Of a DNA stretch of 20,724 bases, positions 11,466 to 20,159 are shown piece by piece; the first letter of the stretch is position 1; every line of letters begins with the position of its first letter. This stretch comes from a virus. Below the pieces are notes generated by a model. It had not been told where the DNA came from. It ran no database searches and was given only the letters and a program-made list of their open reading frames with translations. A program made the position numbers and the translations under genes. The DNA lies in IMG/VR virus record IMGVR_UViG_3300011113_000266, positions 1 through 20,724 of that record. One strand, given 5' to 3'.

Positions 11466-11473
11466 TAAATTTG
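11443..11473 (+). promoter_or_regulatory. Candidate promoter for the structured RNA and initiator gene
   Basis: TAAATTTG (11466-11473) matches the -7 consensus. A TTT at 11443-11445 is 20 bases upstream, a weak -33 match. Initiation five to seven bases after the element would put the RNA 5' end at about 11478-11480, exactly at the first hairpin. Confidence 0.55.
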
Positions 11474-11479
11474 TAAAAA

Positions 11480-11568
11480 TGATGTGTACGGACATCACTT
11501 AAAAACATCAACAATCCCAAGTTGGGGGAGGCTCCGTACAGCCGAACCCGATTTGGGATTTTTATTTT
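11480..11568 (+). ncRNA. Structured RNA with complementary hairpin loops, ending in a terminator
   Basis: Hairpin 1 (11480-11497) has a six-pair stem TGATGT/ACATCA and loop GTACGG. Hairpin 2 (11513-11560) has a 14-pair stem AATCCCAAGTTGGG/CCCGATTTGGGATT (two G-U). It then has a symmetric GGA/GAA internal loop suited to tandem G-A pairs, a GGCT/AGCC stem, and loop CCGTAC. The two six-base loops are exact reverse complements, so a kissing interaction is possible. The lower stem runs into TTTTTATTTT, making hairpin 2 an intrinsic terminator. The ATG of the initiator follows at once. It may be a small RNA or an attenuating leader; I know no named class that it matches. Confidence 0.6.
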
Positions 11569-12318
11569 ATGTTAGTTTACACAAATATTCAGCACAATTT
11601 TAGAAAGAAACATAACCTTAGCTGCAATGAATATGTGCTATTGGATATGATTTATGTATTGCATACCAACCCTGACAATAAATTAGATAACTGGTGCTAT
11701 ATGTCAAAAAACAATCTTGCAAAAGAAATCGGCATCAGCAAAATGGGTTTAATGAAGATGATAGACCGATTAGTCGTTGATGGTTTTATCATTAAAAATG
11801 ATGCAACAAAGCACTTAAGAACTACTGAAAAATGGTGGTCAAATTATGTGGATAACCAAGGTAAAGAAAGTTTACCGATGGTAAACAAAGTTTACCAAGG
11901 GAGTAAACAAAGTTTACCGGATGGCGGTAAACAAAGTTTACCACATGGCGGTAAACAAAGTTTACCTAATAATAATACTATAGATAATAATACTATAGAT
12001 AATAATACTGATAAGGCAAATGAGCGCATTGATATTTACACTTTTGATGAATGGTGGGATTTATACAATAAGAAACTTGACAGAAAAGACTGCGAAAAAA
12101 AATGGAACAAAATACCTGCATACCTAAAGGCGCAGATATTTTTGCACACGAAAAAATACATAGCCGCAACACCTGATGTTCAATACAGAAAAAACCCATT
12201 AACTTATCTCAACAAAGAATCTTGGAACAACGATATTGTGGTAAATACAGCAAATACTGCAAAAGAACTTGGACCAACCGCTTCATTCAAAACAACCGAT
12301 TACTCACAAAAACTTTAA
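11569..12318 (+). CDS. Replication initiator (helix-turn-helix, DnaD/O-like)
   Basis: The 249 residues fall into three parts. The first about 90 residues are a winged-helix domain: KHNLSCNEYVLLDMIYVL, then a NLAKEIGISKMGLMKMIDRL helix-turn-helix with VVDGFIIKN as the wing. The middle (about 100-146) is low-complexity, with repeated KQSLP and NNTID units that are the readout of DNA repeats. The last part is FDEWWDLYNKKLDRKDCEKKWNKI, ending YRKNPLTYLNKESWNND. This W-x-LY-KK/KDCEKKW and NP-TYLN-ESW pattern is typical of phage replisome organisers. It probably binds the internal iterons and, with the helicase loader encoded just after it, opens the origin. Its ATG abuts the terminator of the RNA above, so expression may depend on read-through. 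Confidence 0.7.
   Translation: MLVYTNIQHNFRKKHNLSCNEYVLLDMIYVLHTNPDNKLDNWCYMSKNNLAKEIGISKMGLMKMIDRLVVDGFIIKNDATKHLRTTEKWWSNYVDNQGKESLPMVNKVYQGSKQSLPDGGKQSLPHGGKQSLPNNNTIDNNTIDNNTDKANERIDIYTFDEWWDLYNKKLDRKDCEKKWNKIPAYLKAQIFLHTKKYIAATPDVQYRKNPLTYLNKESWNNDIVVNTANTAKELGPTASFKTTDYSQKL
11860..11966 (+). repeat. Five palindromic 17-bp iterons
   Basis: Copies of GGTAAACAAAGTTTACC lie at 11860-11876 (C to G at position 7), 11880-11896, 11902-11918 (first G to A), 11926-11942 and 11950-11966. Each is an inverted repeat GGTAAAC/GTTTACC around AAA. Spacings between starts are 20, 22, 24 and 24 bases. Copy 2 is out of frame with the others, so it encodes a different peptide although its DNA is the same; selection therefore acts on DNA. 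Confidence 0.88.
11971..12009 (+). repeat. AT-rich direct repeats beside the iterons
   Basis: AATAATACTATAGAT occurs at 11971-11985 and 11986-12000, and its first nine bases again at 12001-12009. The stretch is almost wholly A/T and follows the last iteron by four bases, as expected of a DNA unwinding element. Confidence 0.8.
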
Positions 12319-12320
12319 CA

Positions 12321-13163
12321 ATGCAAACAATTACACTAACAGATCAAGAAATCACCGCTGCAATATTGCAGGCGAAGAAAAAACAATACCATCAAGACCT
12401 GATGCAGGGCAAGGTTCGGGCAACATTAAAGCCGCCAGTGAACTACTTTGTTGATTATAGCACCTACCCTTTGACCGAAAACGAACAGAAAGAGGTATTA
12501 GAGCGATTAAAAGAAAAAAAGCAGTCAGACATCAAGGCAAAAGAATACTTCGCAAAAATCAAACAAGAAGAGCGTTTTTTGGCAATTACAGATGAGCAGC
12601 TATTCAGACTGATACTTGGCAGGTTGTATAAAATCATAAACACGAACACCCGAACCGAAAAAGCGATAACCGAGCAGAATGCAGACATCGTTCGTAATTT
12701 AGTTCCTTATTTGCTCGGATTTGAAAATGAACTTTACGACCTTAACAAGGGTTTGTTATTCATCGGCGGCACCGGAACGGGCAAGACAGCGATAATGACT
12801 GCAATAGGCGACACCCCGATGGGCAGGTTCGACCTGCATTCGTGCGAACTGGTTGCAGACTATTATGCAGAAGATTCGACCTATTTTTTCAATCAGTATG
12901 TAACCAATCCAATACAGCCGAACATATTCTTTGACGACTTCGGGTTTGAAACGGCAAAGCAGCAGCCGTATCAGAAAGCGGTTGAGGAGCCGATGCTAAT
13001 TGCATTGGTGAAGCGGCACGAATTGGGTTTGTTCCGGCAAACAAGAATAACCACGAACCTGAATGGCGATATGATAGAACAGCGATATGGTCAGCGATTA
13101 CGCAGCAGGTTGCGAGAGATGTGCAACGTGATTATTCTGAACGGTAAAGATTTGAGGGTATAA
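12321..13163 (+). CDS. DnaC-like helicase loader ATPase
   Basis: The ATG at 12321, two bases after the initiator stop, gives 280 residues; a longer frame upstream only reads through the initiator gene. The first 110 residues are helical and basic and would contact helicase or initiator. The AAA+ core has Walker A GGTGTGKT at 149-156, Walker B IFFDDFG at 202-208 with the acidic pair at 205-206, a sensor-1-like TTN at 244-246, and a GQRLRSRLREM segment near 257-267 that supplies the arginines. The protein would load the replicative helicase at the origin encoded just upstream. Its stop codon TAA starts the attC-like sequence that follows. Confidence 0.8.
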   Translation: MQTITLTDQEITAAILQAKKKQYHQDLMQGKVRATLKPPVNYFVDYSTYPLTENEQKEVLERLKEKKQSDIKAKEYFAKIKQEERFLAITDEQLFRLILGRLYKIINTNTRTEKAITEQNADIVRNLVPYLLGFENELYDLNKGLLFIGGTGTGKTAIMTAIGDTPMGRFDLHSCELVADYYAEDSTYFFNQYVTNPIQPNIFFDDFGFETAKQQPYQKAVEEPMLIALVKRHELGLFRQTRITTNLNGDMIEQRYGQRLRSRLREMCNVIILNGKDLRV

Positions 13164-13951: not shown

Positions 13952-16213
13952 ATGCGAATCACACTACTCTTTATGCTGATATGTTCAGCATTATCTGCAC
14001 AAGTACCGATACTGCAATCGCTTCCCACTTCGCAGAATGTCTTATATCTTGACTTCGATGGCGCAGTGGTGAACAATCCGAACTGGAGCGCAACGACGAT
14101 AAACGCCGCCCCATCAGGATTCACTGCGGCACAAATAACCGAATGCTTCAACATCATTGCGAATCATTACACGATATTCGACCTGAACGTCACCACATCG
14201 CTTGCAGTATATAATGCGGCGGCGGCAACAAGAAGATCAACAATAGTATTCACATCAACCTGCCAATTCGTTGGATGTCCGGGTGGAATTGCTATGTTTG
14301 GCACGTTTGGTTTTCCATCGTATGAGCCTTGCGGATGGGTATTTGCAGGCATATCGGATAAAAGACCAAATGTTGCAGCAATAGCAGGAGCGCACGAGAT
14401 TGGTCATTTATTAAATTTAGCGCATCACGGTTCATACAATGCCAGTGGACAAAGACTAAACGCATACAATTACGGCAATGCGAATGGTGAAATGGCTTGG
14501 TGCCCGAATATGGGAGCAGCCTATAATGCCAATGTGATTCAATGGGTACAAGGACCGACATCATATATGACAGCACCTGAAGCAAATTCATCAGGCTTTA
14601 CCGTTAAAAATTGGCAAGAAGATTTCAAAGAAATGGTATTGGAAAAGATAGGCGGCAATGGATATGCAGGACATCCTGCAAGTAAAGTGACATTCAAAGC
14701 AGACGACATCGGAAGCACGACCGCAACGGCAAAGGCAATCAACATCGTAAACAATGCCATATCGGATTCAGGAATCATCGGTCGTTCGTTTGGAAGTGTT
14801 ACTAAATTCACAGCAACGGATAATTTACAAATCACATACGATGATGACTACTTCAGGGTAACGACAACTTCGGCACAGAATATGACTATCAACTGCCGAC
14901 CGTGGTCATTGAGCAAATCAGTATTAGATAACCAATATGCAACGCTTGACGTGCGGCTGATCATTCGCAATTCGGCAGGAACGGTCATCGCTATTGATTC
15001 AAACATAAACAAGCTAAACGCATCAATAACACTATTCAATCAACCTGCCGGAACATATTTCATTCAGGTATCGGCATCGGGCAATTCAAGTTATTCAGAT
15101 TTATGGTATACGACAAATCCATTTAACAATCAACCTGCGAATACAAGATATGGCAGCGTGGGTCGTTATTACCTGACCGGAACATTTGCATCGGCGACAT
15201 CATTGCCAGTGGCGAACTTTACGCAACCGAGTTCAACGTGTGTAGGCAATACATTGACGATGAACAACCAATCACAGCAGGCGACGACATACACTTGGAA
15301 CTTCGGAGCAGGAGCAACGCCATCCACTTCAACGGCGTTTAACCCGACCGTTACCTACACGACAGCAGGCAACAAGACCATCACGCTAACGGCAACGAAT
15401 ACAAATGGCAGTAACACGACCACACGAACAGTGAACATCACATCGGCACTGGTAGCAACGATACAAGCACCTGCATCGGTTGTATCAGGTACATCAACGG
15501 TCATCACGGCAAATGCAACGGGCGGCACAACACCATACACTTACAAGTGGTACACGGTCAATCCGAATCAGACAACGCAGTCGATAACAATTGCACCTAC
15601 AACCGCAACGGGGTACAACGTACTTGTAACTTCAGCAAACGGATGCACTTCAGATGCCTATGCCTATGTGAATGTGGGCGCACCGCCACCACCACCACCA
15701 AGTTGTGCACAACCGACCATATCGGCAACAACCACCTGCAACGGCACTACGTTAAACATAACCCCGAACACAGCATATCAATCATTCCTTGTTCAGCATA
15801 GCGTAAACAATGGCAGCATCAATTCACAGACCATCACCGGAACAAGTGCATCGTTTAACTTTCAGGCGAACGCATCGGTAAGGTTCATCGTTACGGCAAC
15901 GTGTACGAATGGGGCGAAATCGACAGCATCCGAAATAACATCGGTAATACCTGCAATTACACAAGCCGCACCCGACTTCAGCCTTGCATCAAGCAATGGC
16001 AGGATAACGACTACATTCGTAAATAACGGCAGCAAGTTCTACGCAATACGATATAGGGCAAATGGCACAACGGCGTGGACAGAAAACACAACAAACGGAT
16101 TGACGATAACCGTTGGGGCAGTACGTGGCACCACATACGAAGTGCAATCGCAATCACGATGCCAAACGGGTCAGGGCAGTTGGTCAACATCTAAAACAAT
16201 AACCGCACAATAA
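13952..16213 (+). CDS. Secreted metzincin-type metalloprotease with PPC- and PKD-like domains
   Basis: The 753 residues begin with a signal peptide (MRITLLFMLICSALSA, cleavage after A16). The zinc site is H148-E-x-x-H152-x5-H158 in AHEIGHLLNLAHH, a metzincin HExxHxxGxxH with asparagine in place of the glycine. The Met-turn is probably M187 in WCPNMGAAY. A PPC-like beta domain (about 240-412), a PKD domain (about 418-497, with WNFG and a TYTTAGNKTITLTATN strand pair), a second Ig-like domain (about 500-575), a PPPPPP linker, and an Fn3-like C-terminal region follow. No type IX secretion signal is obvious at the C-terminus. It would be exported by the infected cell. A surface-degrading or lysogeny-related role is possible but unproven. 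Confidence 0.78.
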   Translation: MRITLLFMLICSALSAQVPILQSLPTSQNVLYLDFDGAVVNNPNWSATTINAAPSGFTAAQITECFNIIANHYTIFDLNVTTSLAVYNAAAATRRSTIVFTSTCQFVGCPGGIAMFGTFGFPSYEPCGWVFAGISDKRPNVAAIAGAHEIGHLLNLAHHGSYNASGQRLNAYNYGNANGEMAWCPNMGAAYNANVIQWVQGPTSYMTAPEANSSGFTVKNWQEDFKEMVLEKIGGNGYAGHPASKVTFKADDIGSTTATAKAINIVNNAISDSGIIGRSFGSVTKFTATDNLQITYDDDYFRVTTTSAQNMTINCRPWSLSKSVLDNQYATLDVRLIIRNSAGTVIAIDSNINKLNASITLFNQPAGTYFIQVSASGNSSYSDLWYTTNPFNNQPANTRYGSVGRYYLTGTFASATSLPVANFTQPSSTCVGNTLTMNNQSQQATTYTWNFGAGATPSTSTAFNPTVTYTTAGNKTITLTATNTNGSNTTTRTVNITSALVATIQAPASVVSGTSTVITANATGGTTPYTYKWYTVNPNQTTQSITIAPTTATGYNVLVTSANGCTSDAYAYVNVGAPPPPPPSCAQPTISATTTCNGTTLNITPNTAYQSFLVQHSVNNGSINSQTITGTSASFNFQANASVRFIVTATCTNGAKSTASEITSVIPAITQAAPDFSLASSNGRITTTFVNNGSKFYAIRYRANGTTAWTENTTNGLTITVGAVRGTTYEVQSQSRCQTGQGSWSTSKTITAQ

Positions 16214-16634: not shown

Positions 16635-17068
16635 CGTACATCAACCACATATTATATATCGGCATTGACCCTGACCTTGATAAGTCGGGGTTATGCATTT
16701 ATGACCGATACGCACAAGACAAGATGCAGTTGATAAACGCTTCATTCTTTGATGTGCTTGACATCCTGAATGAAAGCTATAAGACACGCAGGACAATCAC
16801 ACATATAGAAGCAGGGTGGTTGAACAAGAAAAGTAACTGGCACGCAGGCAACAACATCGTATCGCAAAAGATAGCCAAGAACGTTGGCGAGAACCACGCA
16901 ACGGGCAAATTGATTGAACAGTACTGCATCCGCAACAACTATCAGTATAAACTTATCGTACCTAAAAAGTCAAAGGTCGATGCGGCAATGTTCAAGAAGC
17001 TAACCGGGTATGACAAGCGAACAAATCAGGAACTGCGAGATGCGGCAATGTTAGTGTATGGCTTATGA
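16631..17068 (+). CDS. RuvC-like Holliday junction resolvase
   Basis: TTG at 16631 overlaps the previous stop (TTGA) and is the only fitting start, giving 145 residues. The RNase H-type fold is indicated by YIGIDPDLDKSGLCIYD (Asp13), a strand ending in HIEAGW (Glu60), the GENHATGKLIEQYC helix, a strand KLIVPKKSK, and the final ELRDAAMLVYG with Asp137. These acidic positions match the metal-binding set of RuvC enzymes. It would resolve branched recombination or replication intermediates before packaging. The next gene starts within the last four bases (ATGA), indicating an operon. Confidence 0.78.
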   Translation: MTYINHILYIGIDPDLDKSGLCIYDRYAQDKMQLINASFFDVLDILNESYKTRRTITHIEAGWLNKKSNWHAGNNIVSQKIAKNVGENHATGKLIEQYCIRNNYQYKLIVPKKSKVDAAMFKKLTGYDKRTNQELRDAAMLVYGL

Positions 17069-18765
17069 CATTCCAAGACTTATACACGGGCGATGAACTG
17101 AAGAAAATCTGTAAAAAGATAACGAACAACCACTGCCTAACTGACGACCTATATCAGGAAGTACTTATATGCCTGCTTGAATACGACAAAAAGAAGCTAA
17201 ACGCAATCGAACAGCAGGGAGCGAACAACATCAAGTGGTTTGCAGTGCGCATCACGATGACAATGTGGAATAGTCCGAGAAGCACATTCAACTACAAATA
17301 CAGAAAGCACCTGCACGATGAACTGACCGACAAGCATACAAATATCATTACCTTTGACGAAACAAATCAATACGATGAAGCCACGCTCGAAGAGTACATC
17401 AAAGAACAAGAAAAGCAGCAATCAAGCAAAGGGAAATACCCCTACGATGCACGCATATTGCAGCACTATGTCGCAGAGGGTTCAATACGAAAGTTGCACA
17501 AAGAAACAGGCATCCCCATTTCGGCTATACACTTCAGCCTAAAAAAAAGCAAACAACAAATCAAAGAATATATGAACAATCAACCGTACAAGGTGCTGAT
17601 GCTTCGCAATGTGCCAGAGGGCGGCGTGGAATACCATCGCAGCCTTATTCCTGCCTACCATATCGGCGAGAATTACAAGCACATCGACATCACGCTAATC
17701 AATAACATTGAAGATGCAACGGAGCAGTTCTTTAAAGACTATCAGTTGTTGGTCATCACGAGGCAGGCATCCCGATTCACGAATCCGGTTACAATCATTG
17801 AACGGGCAAAAAAAGCAGGTTGCAAGGTCTTATACGACATTGATGACTATTGGATATTGCCACACGACCACGTTTTATACGACACCTTCAAAAAGGAATA
17901 CAGCAATATGATTGTTGACACGATAAGGGCAGCAGATTATATCACGACTACAACGACATACCTTGCTGACAAGCTACGCAACTACAACCCGAATATTGAA
18001 GTACTGCCGAACGCAATCAATCCTGAACAGCCGCAATGGTCAAGCACGGCAACGCCATCGGAATTGGTTCGGGTAGGGTGGCAGGGCGGCATTTGTCATT
18101 TACCTGACTTGTCATTAATGGACAACTGCATACACAGACTGCATCAAGACGACAATATGAAAGGCAAGTATCAGGTTGTATATGGTGGGTTCAGCAATGG
18201 TCAAAAGCACTTACAGATAGGCGAGGATGGCAAACTGATTGAAGTACCAACGCCGATGCAGATGCAGGAATCGTACAAGTACGAACTAATCTTATCCGAC
18301 CGATACACGTGTTGCAGTGATGAATACAAAGCAGAGTTAAAGAAGTTTGAGCCTGCGGCAATAACCACAAACGAACGCTATAAACGTATATGGGGCAAAG
18401 ACGTATTCAACTACGGCTACATACTTGACGAGATGGATATATGCCTTGTGCCGTTAAAAGACAATGAGTTCAACCGATGCAAGTCGCCATTGAAACTTGC
18501 AGAAGCAGGGTTCAAGAAAAAGCCTTGCATCGTTTCAAACATATTACCTTATTCACCGCACTATAACGGCAGTAACTTCGTGGCGGTCGATTCGCACAAA
18601 AATCACAAAGACTGGTACAAGCAGATGAAGCGACTTATCGAATCCCCTGCAATGCGACAAGAGTATGGCGAAGCCTTATATGAATCAGTGAAAGTAAAAT
18701 TTCACATCGACACAGTAAATAAAAAAAGAGTGCAGCTATGGAACTTCATTGTGAATGGATATTAA
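17065..18765 (+). CDS. Sigma-factor-like domain fused to a GT4-type glycosyltransferase
   Basis: One uninterrupted frame of 566 residues. Residues 1-168 look like a small sigma-70-type protein: region 2-like helices (TDDLYQEVLICLLEYDKK, IKWFAVRITMTMW), then a region 4 helix-turn-helix (GSIRKLHKETGIPISAIHFSLKKS). From residue 174 (YKVLMLRNVPEGGVEYHRS) it is a two-lobed glycosyltransferase: CKVLYDIDDYW at 253-263, VLPNAINP at 313-320, and CKSPLKLAEAGF at 472-483, where the glutamate would bind the donor. The two parts join almost without linker. ATG at 17572 (residue 170) could start the transferase alone. Eight A residues at 17541-17548 lie just before the junction; losing one would end the sigma part at TGA 17573-17575, overlapping that ATG. 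Confidence 0.7.
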   Translation: MTFQDLYTGDELKKICKKITNNHCLTDDLYQEVLICLLEYDKKKLNAIEQQGANNIKWFAVRITMTMWNSPRSTFNYKYRKHLHDELTDKHTNIITFDETNQYDEATLEEYIKEQEKQQSSKGKYPYDARILQHYVAEGSIRKLHKETGIPISAIHFSLKKSKQQIKEYMNNQPYKVLMLRNVPEGGVEYHRSLIPAYHIGENYKHIDITLINNIEDATEQFFKDYQLLVITRQASRFTNPVTIIERAKKAGCKVLYDIDDYWILPHDHVLYDTFKKEYSNMIVDTIRAADYITTTTTYLADKLRNYNPNIEVLPNAINPEQPQWSSTATPSELVRVGWQGGICHLPDLSLMDNCIHRLHQDDNMKGKYQVVYGGFSNGQKHLQIGEDGKLIEVPTPMQMQESYKYELILSDRYTCCSDEYKAELKKFEPAAITTNERYKRIWGKDVFNYGYILDEMDICLVPLKDNEFNRCKSPLKLAEAGFKKKPCIVSNILPYSPHYNGSNFVAVDSHKNHKDWYKQMKRLIESPAMRQEYGEALYESVKVKFHIDTVNKKRVQLWNFIVNGY

Positions 18766-19001
18766 TACTTTCACCGTTCATAGCGGCGGCAATCTACCCG
18801 GTTAGCAACGTGGTGCAGACGTTCAAATGGTTCTTTAATATCAAGAGATTAAAGCCATTCGATTGCACGAAGTGCTTATCTTTTTGGATATGCCTAATGC
18901 AGGGCATAATGTTCAATATATCATTGCAAATATTAATACCTTTGTGCTTCACTTCGATGTTCGCAGGGTACTTGATTTCAAAATACATAACCAAACAATG
19001 A
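18738..19001 (+). CDS. Small membrane protein with CxxC motif
   Basis: The 87 residues have two to three hydrophobic helices: LILSPFIAAAIYPV near the start, SFWICLMQGIMFNI in the middle, and ILIPLCFTSMFAGYLI at the end. FDCTKCLSFW puts a cysteine pair at a membrane boundary. Similar PFDC-KCLSFW proteins occur in Bacteroidota phages near glycosyltransferases. It overlaps the transferase by 28 bases and the next gene by four. A membrane partner in glycan handling is possible. Confidence 0.55.
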   Translation: MELHCEWILILSPFIAAAIYPVSNVVQTFKWFFNIKRLKPFDCTKCLSFWICLMQGIMFNISLQILIPLCFTSMFAGYLISKYITKQ

Positions 19002-19267
19002 ACCAATCACAATACGAGCGATTAAAGTCAGCGTTCACGACATACAACACGTGGCGAGTGGCAGGCTTTGTTGCAGGCGATAATCAGTCGCAGTCGCACT
19101 TGATGACGATGCTATCGGTACACGTTGAGATATTCAGCACGATGCCGCCGCCTGACCTATCGTGCCCATCTTGTGTGCAGGATATGATGAAGCGGTTATA
19201 CGAACAAACAAACTACACGATATATGAAAAAAGCACTATTAACGGGAGCAAGCGGGTTCGTCGGTAG
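18998..19267 (+). CDS. Small hypothetical protein with CxxC (89 residues)
   Basis: The ATG at 18998 overlaps the previous stop (ATGA), which fixes the start over a longer upstream frame. The protein begins MNQSQYERLKSAFTTYNTW and holds an LSCPSCVQDMMKRLYEQ segment, i.e. a cysteine pair on a helix that could bind zinc with other residues. The last 44 bases overlap the epimerase gene. I recognise the layout from Bacteroidota phages but no function. Confidence 0.5.
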   Translation: MNQSQYERLKSAFTTYNTWRVAGFVAGDNQSQSHLMTMLSVHVEIFSTMPPPDLSCPSCVQDMMKRLYEQTNYTIYEKSTINGSKRVRR

Positions 19268-20159
19268 GTACTTCTGTCAATACCTGAAACAAGAGGGGTG
19301 GGAAGTTCACGCAAACGACATCGTGAAAGAAACGCACAACTATTGGGATAAATATTACGAAACCGATTGCAGGAAGTTATTTGCAATCATAAAGCCTAAA
19401 TTCGACCTAATCATTCATTGTGCCGCAGTGGTTGGCGGTCGCCTGAATCTTGAAAAAAATCAGATAGCAGTCGCATCAGACCTATCCATCGATGCAGAGT
19501 TCTTCAACTGGGTAAAGTCTTGCCCCAAGCATACACGTATTGTGTATTTCAGCAGTTCAGCGGCATATCCGATACACTTGCAGGAATCAGTATATAAGCT
19601 GAAAGAAGTTGACATTGACCTATACGACATCAGGCAACCCGATATGACTTACGGGTGGGTTAAATTAACGGGCGAAATGGTAGCACATCGATTACATATT
19701 GAATACGATAAAAAGGTCACGGTACTTCGTCCATTCAGCGGCTATGGGCTGATGCAGGACCTAACCTATCCATTCCCGAGCATCATAAAGCGTGTAGTTG
19801 AAAAGCAGCACCCTATTGAAATATGGGGGAACGGCAATCAAGTACGTGACTTCATTCACATATCAGACATCGTCAATGCGACAATGATATTGAGTGAGGA
19901 ACGCACGAAAGCGAATGCAATAAACCTATGCACGGGCATACCGACATCATTCATTGAACTGGCAACGATGGCATACGAACAGATGTGGGGGCAAACGCCG
20001 TACATTAAGACCGATACAACCAAGCCGACCGGACCTGCATACCGATGCGGCGACGAAACCGAACTACTTAAATATTACCTGCCGACCGTAACATTAGAAC
20101 AAGGAATAAACATCAAACTAAATGAATCCAAAAGTATTAGTCTGCATTCTACATTGTGA
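19224..20159 (+). CDS. NAD-dependent sugar epimerase/dehydratase (extended SDR)
   Basis: The 311 residues form an extended short-chain dehydrogenase. TGASGFVG at 7-14 gives the GxxGxxG dinucleotide loop, and DLIIHCAAVVGG (61-72) is the beta-4 motif. FSSSAAYP (109-116) carries the catalytic serine, and Y143-x3-K147 in YGWVKLTG the tyrosine and lysine. A RPFSGYG stretch and RDFIHISDIV follow, as in NDP-sugar 4-epimerases, 4,6-dehydratases and GDP-fucose synthase-like enzymes. The exact sugar is not decided by the sequence. With two glycosyltransferases nearby it probably supplies a modified sugar donor. It overlaps neighbours by 44 and 38 bases. Confidence 0.8.
   Translation: MKKALLTGASGFVGRYFCQYLKQEGWEVHANDIVKETHNYWDKYYETDCRKLFAIIKPKFDLIIHCAAVVGGRLNLEKNQIAVASDLSIDAEFFNWVKSCPKHTRIVYFSSSAAYPIHLQESVYKLKEVDIDLYDIRQPDMTYGWVKLTGEMVAHRLHIEYDKKVTVLRPFSGYGLMQDLTYPFPSIIKRVVEKQHPIEIWGNGNQVRDFIHISDIVNATMILSEERTKANAINLCTGIPTSFIELATMAYEQMWGQTPYIKTDTTKPTGPAYRCGDETELLKYYLPTVTLEQGINIKLNESKSISLHSTL

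Follow-up and report, generated by a model that had tools for sequence, protein, structure and literature searches.

Our analysis points to a structured RNA at the head of the replication operon of a 20.7-kb phage contig of Bacteroidota type, which carries portal, structural, exonuclease, and replication genes and was analyzed over its whole length (the window). Two hairpins with mutually complementary loops, the second of which is an intrinsic terminator, lie between a promoter box and the start codon of the replication initiator. This RNA class is strongly supported, and we propose, with a probability of roughly one in two, that the promoter-RNA-terminator cassette attenuates the replication operon, with the loop-loop contact tuning read-through and the free RNA adding feedback in trans.

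The element is read from the plus strand, beginning with the -7 promoter box TAAATTTG (positions 11466 to 11473), which fits TAnnTTTG, the -7 consensus of the Bacteroidota housekeeping sigma factor, sigma-ABfr (PMC7366714). The initial annotation had proposed a -7 element at this site, and a box of this kind precedes nearly all of the related RNAs; for the metagenomic contigs, this promoter type points to hosts from the Bacteroidota. Six bases separate the box from hairpin 1 (11480 to 11497), whose 6-bp stem UGAUGU/ACAUCA (11480 to 11485 and 11492 to 11497) encloses kissing loop 1, GUACGG (11486 to 11491), and which is supported by the predicted fold, by column covariation, and by complementarity across about 20 loop types. 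A 15-nt linker predicted to be single stranded (11498 to 11512; the fold of L127- and L129-type linkers holds an additional hairpin, GGUUAAAC(C/A)UUUAACC) leads to hairpin 2 (11513 to 11560), which forms the stem of the intrinsic terminator, as indicated by the fold and by compensatory lower-stem changes in relatives. Hairpin 2 consists of a lower stem of 14 pairs (11513 to 11526 and 11547 to 11560), an internal loop of GGA (11527 to 11529) facing GAA (11544 to 11546), an upper stem of 4 bp (11530 to 11533 and 11540 to 11543), and kissing loop 2, CCGUAC (11534 to 11539), and the T-rich tail of the terminator (11557 to 11568) extends up to the start codon. Thus, both hairpins within 11480 to 11568, the 14-pair stem, the internal loop, and the tail were borne out by sequence and fold exactly where they had been annotated, as was the direct contact of the terminator with the initiator ATG at 11569. 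The minimum free energy of positions 11470 to 11575 is -35.2 kcal/mol, compared to -20.4 ± 3.2 kcal/mol for shuffled sequences (z = -4.6; 0 of 200 shuffles). The six-base loops are exact reverse complements, and their complementarity reaches 8 nt (UGUACGGA/UCCGUACA); neither 8-mer occurs again in the window. A further suggestion, that the GTAC within the loops mediates dimer contacts, did not hold up, and dimerization by this route was dropped: the palindromic GUAC is missing in most relatives (e.g., GUCGCAG/CUGCGAC) and is therefore not conserved.

The nearest relative, IMGVR_UViG_3300011116_000391 (L125), is about 92 to 97% identical to the window overall and 100% identical from hairpin 1 to the ATG; the first difference, TAAATTTG to TAATTTTG, falls on a free n position of the promoter consensus. 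Contigs suited for covariation were reached through exonuclease homologs. In L127, L129, L130, and L131, a TAnnTTTG box precedes the RNA, and the terminator is followed by the ATG of a different, DUF1376-like initiator; the loops are GAACGA/UCGUUC in L127, L130, and L131 and ACGCAG/CUGCGU in L129. As MAFFT failed to align the window correctly with the L127 group, covariation was counted on a cleanly aligned subset and on the loop pairs directly. Five of the six loop-loop pairs are altered on both sides in identical columns, while the hairpin 1 stem is invariant; further double changes in the same alignment affect the terminator stem twice and the upper stem once. All alignment cells (100%) are paired, compared to 26 to 47% in slid versions, and none of 500 shuffles reached the observed covariation. 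A covariance model built from the relatives without the window recovers the window at an E value of 1.7e-5; minus-strand matches of the covariance models reflect the palindromic stems. Loop complementarity is hence maintained by compensatory change, as in a kissing-loop RNA. The initial annotation had proposed seeking covariation in the stems and the loop pair of homologs, and it is present in the loop pair and in the stems of hairpin 2; together with the position of the element in all testable relatives, this strongly supports the annotated reading of a discrete, terminated RNA with a genuine loop-loop contact.

For a broader survey, loci were picked by a scan for the initiator protein, without any RNA criterion, and 80 of 230 initiator relatives were examined. 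One locus with insufficient upstream sequence was left out of the count; in 79 of the 79 testable loci the element was found upstream of the initiator and on the same strand, using a relaxed detector (promoter box, hairpin 1, complementary loop in the terminator hairpin, T-tract, and ATG, up to 720 nt upstream). The same detector matched 8 of 758 controls, namely, minus-strand ATGs of the same loci (5/240), ATGs of other viral contigs (2/360), and shuffled regions (1/158). A stricter detector gave matches in these loci solely on the coding strand ahead of initiators; it returned two copies of one sequence from 2.16 Mb of other viral contigs, both strands included, and one match from 1.74 Mb of bacterial contigs. 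The RNA class is apparently common in Bacteroidota phages. A chance pairing of two ordinary hairpins might be argued for, since neither intrinsic terminators nor small hairpins are rare. However, a full match between two random six-base loops has a probability of 0.00024, the match is preserved in about 20 loop pairs, the pairs covary, and the control rate is as low as stated; likewise, promoter box and T-tract confer a strand polarity that argues against a feature acting at the level of DNA. A chance origin of the loop match is excluded, and taken together, these two explanations have a negligible likelihood.

The space between terminator and ATG is conserved in character, being made up in all relatives of 4 to 12 nt of A and T exclusively. 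In the relatives, the RNA is located 200 to 650 nt farther upstream of the initiator, and the first gene is often a small open reading frame (ORF). ORFs of 66 to 74 amino acids without a known family are often found between RNA and initiator, as in L313 (2772 to 2993), L312 (2795 to 2992), and their relatives. A second RNA of the same plan was observed in L129 (5841 to 5965) and L130 (5267 to 5391), with a -7 box TATATTTA and the loops ACCGCCA/UGGCGGU (7 bp); it precedes an inserted gene for a ParB-like/DNA methyltransferase protein, and the cassette is consequently not strictly tied to initiators.

The loops themselves are highly diverse. Among the 19 loop pairs listed, 18 are fully Watson-Crick and 1 contains a G-U pair, so that the loop complementarity of the annotated element is preserved in its homologs; when partners are re-dealt, a mean of 1.2 pairs is complementary. 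Examples include GUCGCAG/CUGCGAC, GUACGAG/CUCGUAC, GUACAAG/CUUGUAC, GUAGAAG/CUUCUAC, GUUGCAG/CUGCAAC, and GUCAGAU/AUCUGAC, as well as UGAACCC/GGGUUCA and UGGAACC/GGUUCCA, in which the partner is predicted to lie in an internal bulge of the terminator hairpin rather than in its apical loop. In family A relatives such as L311, L313, L315, and L361, loop 1 tends to GUnnnAG and loop 2 to CUnnnAC, so that most of the variation falls on the three inner positions. Changes in related sequences are not independent of each other, yet about 20 different pairs demand many independent events.

Comparisons of near-identical regions show how these changes are distributed. L313 and L366 share 93% identity upstream and 97% downstream of the RNA, whereas the RNA itself is merely 56% identical: the scaffold matches up to the loop, the loop core differs, and the entire terminator hairpin has been replaced in step. 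Loop and terminator have been replaced likewise between L381 and L386, and L343 and L348 share an identical downstream gene but have different loops. L129 and L130 have the N-terminal domain of the initiator in common and differ in their loops; L127 and L131 have the loops in common and differ in this domain. The loop type is thus independent of the initiator type. The initiators of L127, L129, L130, and L131 are mosaics, with conserved ends or a conserved C terminus and swapped N-terminal or central parts, and the initiators Freya1_55 and Danklef1_43 of two cultured phages are likewise mosaic; the swapped parts are probably DNA binding.

These two phages, the Polaribacter phages Freya and Danklef, carry an identical element with the loops GGUGGAA/UUCCACC (7 bp). 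The Freya element was found by reading the gap before the initiator; the detector misses its larger loop. Behind the element the two genomes diverge, with the junction right after the terminator: in Freya the initiator follows, while in Danklef a GIY-YIG nuclease gene is followed by an initiator with a different N terminus. This homing endonuclease-like gene (L392, Danklef_1, 1179 to 1547) is missing in Freya. Since loops are swapped while the RNA is kept before a replaced gene, the cassette is modular. The Freya RNA is predicted to have its 5' end just after TATATTTG and its 3' end at the T-tract, with minor read-through into Freya1_55. No tyrosine or serine integrase was found in the 14 metagenomic contigs tested, whereas an integrase has been reported for Polaribacter phages, including Freya and Danklef (PMC8776804), and the element is therefore not tied to lysogeny.

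The RNA class appears to be undescribed, in line with the initial annotation, which knew of no named class with this plan. None of the Rfam 15 covariance models, including that of C4 antisense RNA (RF01695), matched the window or 10 relatives at the gathering score; permissive searches gave exclusively subthreshold, chance-like matches (e.g., L312 to TEG147 with 25 bits, the cutoff being 56.1). Such an RNA class was likewise not found in the open literature. The RNA diverges too fast for BLASTN against phage records to have detected the family, and a search with the exact core GGCTCCGTACAGCCGAAC returned the near-identical contig alone. A pattern for the L127 subfamily recovered known members, along with chance matches, from viral contigs; bacterial genomes yielded no member. 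Model R2 gave one weak match in 396 Bacteroidota genomes, a terminator that follows an ABC-protein gene and has no kissing loops; inspection of the neighborhoods of initiator relatives in bacterial genomes (L303 to L306) revealed no such RNA, and distant relatives of the upstream gene (L138 to L147) are without the element. For phages 11b, 1/32, RAP44, and Fpv5, the detector matched nothing in the stretches that were read, which is a weak negative, as it also misses the larger loop of Freya. A DNA pattern combining the window loops with a gap of 10 to 40 nt was rejected, as it returned chance stretches only (the true gap is 42 nt); these stretches later served as negative controls.

Downstream of the element, the window encodes a DnaD/O-like replication initiator (11569 to 12318, plus strand; phrog_270, E = 5.2e-22, also phrog_678) and, as the second gene of the operon, a DnaC-like helicase loader (12324 to 13163, plus strand; phrog_50, E = 2.4e-14). 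Farther downstream, we observed a PKD domain protein with a HEIGH metalloprotease-like motif (13952 to 16213) and glycosyltransferase-like and NAD-dependent epimerase genes (17065 to 20159), a surface-sugar cargo that is unusual for a small phage. A repeat search identified five iteron-like repeats, GTAAACAAAGTTTACC, in register on the plus strand within the initiator gene (11861 to 11974), which mark a probable replication origin. Five iterons inside the initiator gene could suggest that the RNA is an origin primer or an activating transcript, comparable to ColE1 RNA II or to lambda-type transcriptional activation. We consider this highly improbable, since the RNA stops before the iteron-bearing gene and, in relatives, lies 200 to 650 nt farther upstream of the initiator.

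Replication control by read-through attenuation, one of the roles initially suggested, fits the position and the anatomy of the element. An intrinsic terminator between a TAnnTTTG box and the ATG, as in a transcription attenuator, is present in the window and in its relatives. Furthermore, the genes upstream are all transcribed in the same direction, into this terminator, and the initiator thus relies on read-through unless an unseen promoter exists. In the scenario that we infer for the transcript ends, for the regulatory effect and its direction, and for the component in trans, the sigma-ABfr-type promoter would start the RNA at or near hairpin 1 and hairpin 2 would act as the default stop, with a discrete RNA of about 85 to 90 nt (relatives reach about 135 nt) as the main product. 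The mRNA for initiator and helicase loader would come only from polymerases that read through. Loop 1 would pair with the unpaired loop of the terminator hairpin and set how frequently the terminator is completed, thereby tuning the supply of initiator. By a rough length estimate, in which the values for L361, L358, and L386 hinge on the predicted extent of the terminator stem, kissing in cis with both hairpins zipped is just possible in most members and impossible in L310 unless the RNA is bent. Given this tight geometry, kissing may compete with the closing of the lower stem, favoring read-through, or may instead occur between molecules. Inspection revealed no antiterminator fold, and the stability of the lower stem is such that almost all transcripts could terminate, whether or not the loops are in contact. 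As each finished RNA carries both loops, the free RNA could also pair with a leader that is still being transcribed and has loops of the same type, which would result in copy-number feedback and in cross-repression between phages with the same loops, analogous to P4 CI RNA and plasmid incompatibility RNAs. In the latter, specificity loops change quickly while staying self-matching; by analogy, the fast-changing, self-matching loops described here suggest a self-specific control of the P4 or plasmid type.

The kissing structure might, alternatively, gate ribosome access in a read-through mRNA, similarly to the pseudoknot of ColIb-P9 repZ, given that the hairpin ends 4 to 12 A/T bases from an ATG in all relatives. 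However, the T-tract that consistently follows hairpin 2 is the mark of a terminator, and many relatives start with a small ORF and have their initiator 200 to 530 nt later, which makes translation control improbable. Promoter and terminator are the usual marks of a small RNA gene, and the element might encode a stable RNA whose targets are other mRNAs of phage or host, with kissing serving only to compact or protect it and with its position being incidental. This, too, is hardly probable: the element lies ahead of the replication operon in all 79 testable loci as well as in Freya and Danklef, loop variability makes a conserved external target unlikely, and the window lacks a second 8-nt match to either loop region. 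It is also conceivable, if rather unlikely, that the element functions mainly in trans, as an immunity or incompatibility RNA that shuts the operon of another genome through its nascent leader, the match within one molecule being a by-product of self-recognition. The tight cis geometry of L310 and the precedent of P4 CI RNA (PMC4825925) are in favor of this, and loops that vary fast, stay self-matching, and swap within near-identical regions form the pattern of a specificity determinant. Nevertheless, an intramolecular contact would yield the same covariation, and classical prophage immunity would be unneeded in the 14 metagenomic contigs without an integrase.

A bolder extension of the attenuation model, which we offer tentatively, is that a swappable self-recognition code of 6 to 7 bases gates the replication operon both in cis and between coresident phages, amounting to an RNA-only incompatibility and superinfection system that spans Bacteroidota phages. 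Should the loop code operate from one phage to another, it would represent an incompatibility mechanism made of RNA alone and would provide synthetic biology with orthogonal kissing-loop attenuators. The element adds an unlisted structured RNA at a replication switch point in phages with few known RNA regulators; its natural loop variants are a ready set of compensatory mutants, and Freya and Danklef provide cultured carriers.

Several known systems share parts of this design. The pRNA of phage phi29 also has two mutually complementary loops that covary between phages and pair intermolecularly in the ring of the packaging motor. It resembles our element in having a complementary, covarying loop pair on one phage RNA; the element described here, however, heads a replication operon and doubles as a terminator, a position that argues against a pRNA role. 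Lambda OOP RNA and C4 antisense RNA (RF01695) are small phage RNAs as well, the former adjoining replication gene O as an opposite-strand transcript and the latter controlling a downstream phage gene; self-complementary kissing loops are not known in either. In the control RNAs of plasmids (ColE1 RNA I/II, pT181, and IncFII/ColIb-P9), loop-loop recognition takes place before a replication gene, and the loops diverge between types while staying complementary, with attenuation in pT181 and a leader pseudoknot in ColIb repZ. In these plasmids the antisense RNA is a distinct transcript of the opposite strand, whereas here both partners reside on one sense RNA and we noticed no antisense promoter that is conserved; a promoter scan around the window element, using a sigma-70 consensus rather than the Bacteroidota type, gave no minus-strand site. 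Leader RNAs that control replication genes are thus known already, and P4 is the precedent for self-complementary leaders on the sense strand: its leader CI RNA pairs with seqA and seqC of the same transcript, resulting in termination before the replication genes (PMC4825925). P4 CI RNA matures by processing of a longer transcript and has an upstream and a downstream target, while the element described here has its own promoter and terminator and a single partner pair, one member of which lies within the terminator hairpin; the two share no sequence match, and action in trans would hold for our element by analogy. Both are small sense-strand RNAs in the untranslated leader of a replication operon, with complementary segments on one transcript, and both would act by premature termination before replication genes, with specificity conferred by short RNA-RNA matches. 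By this analogy, P4 CI RNA is the nearest functional precedent for the kissing-loop leader of Bacteroidota phages.
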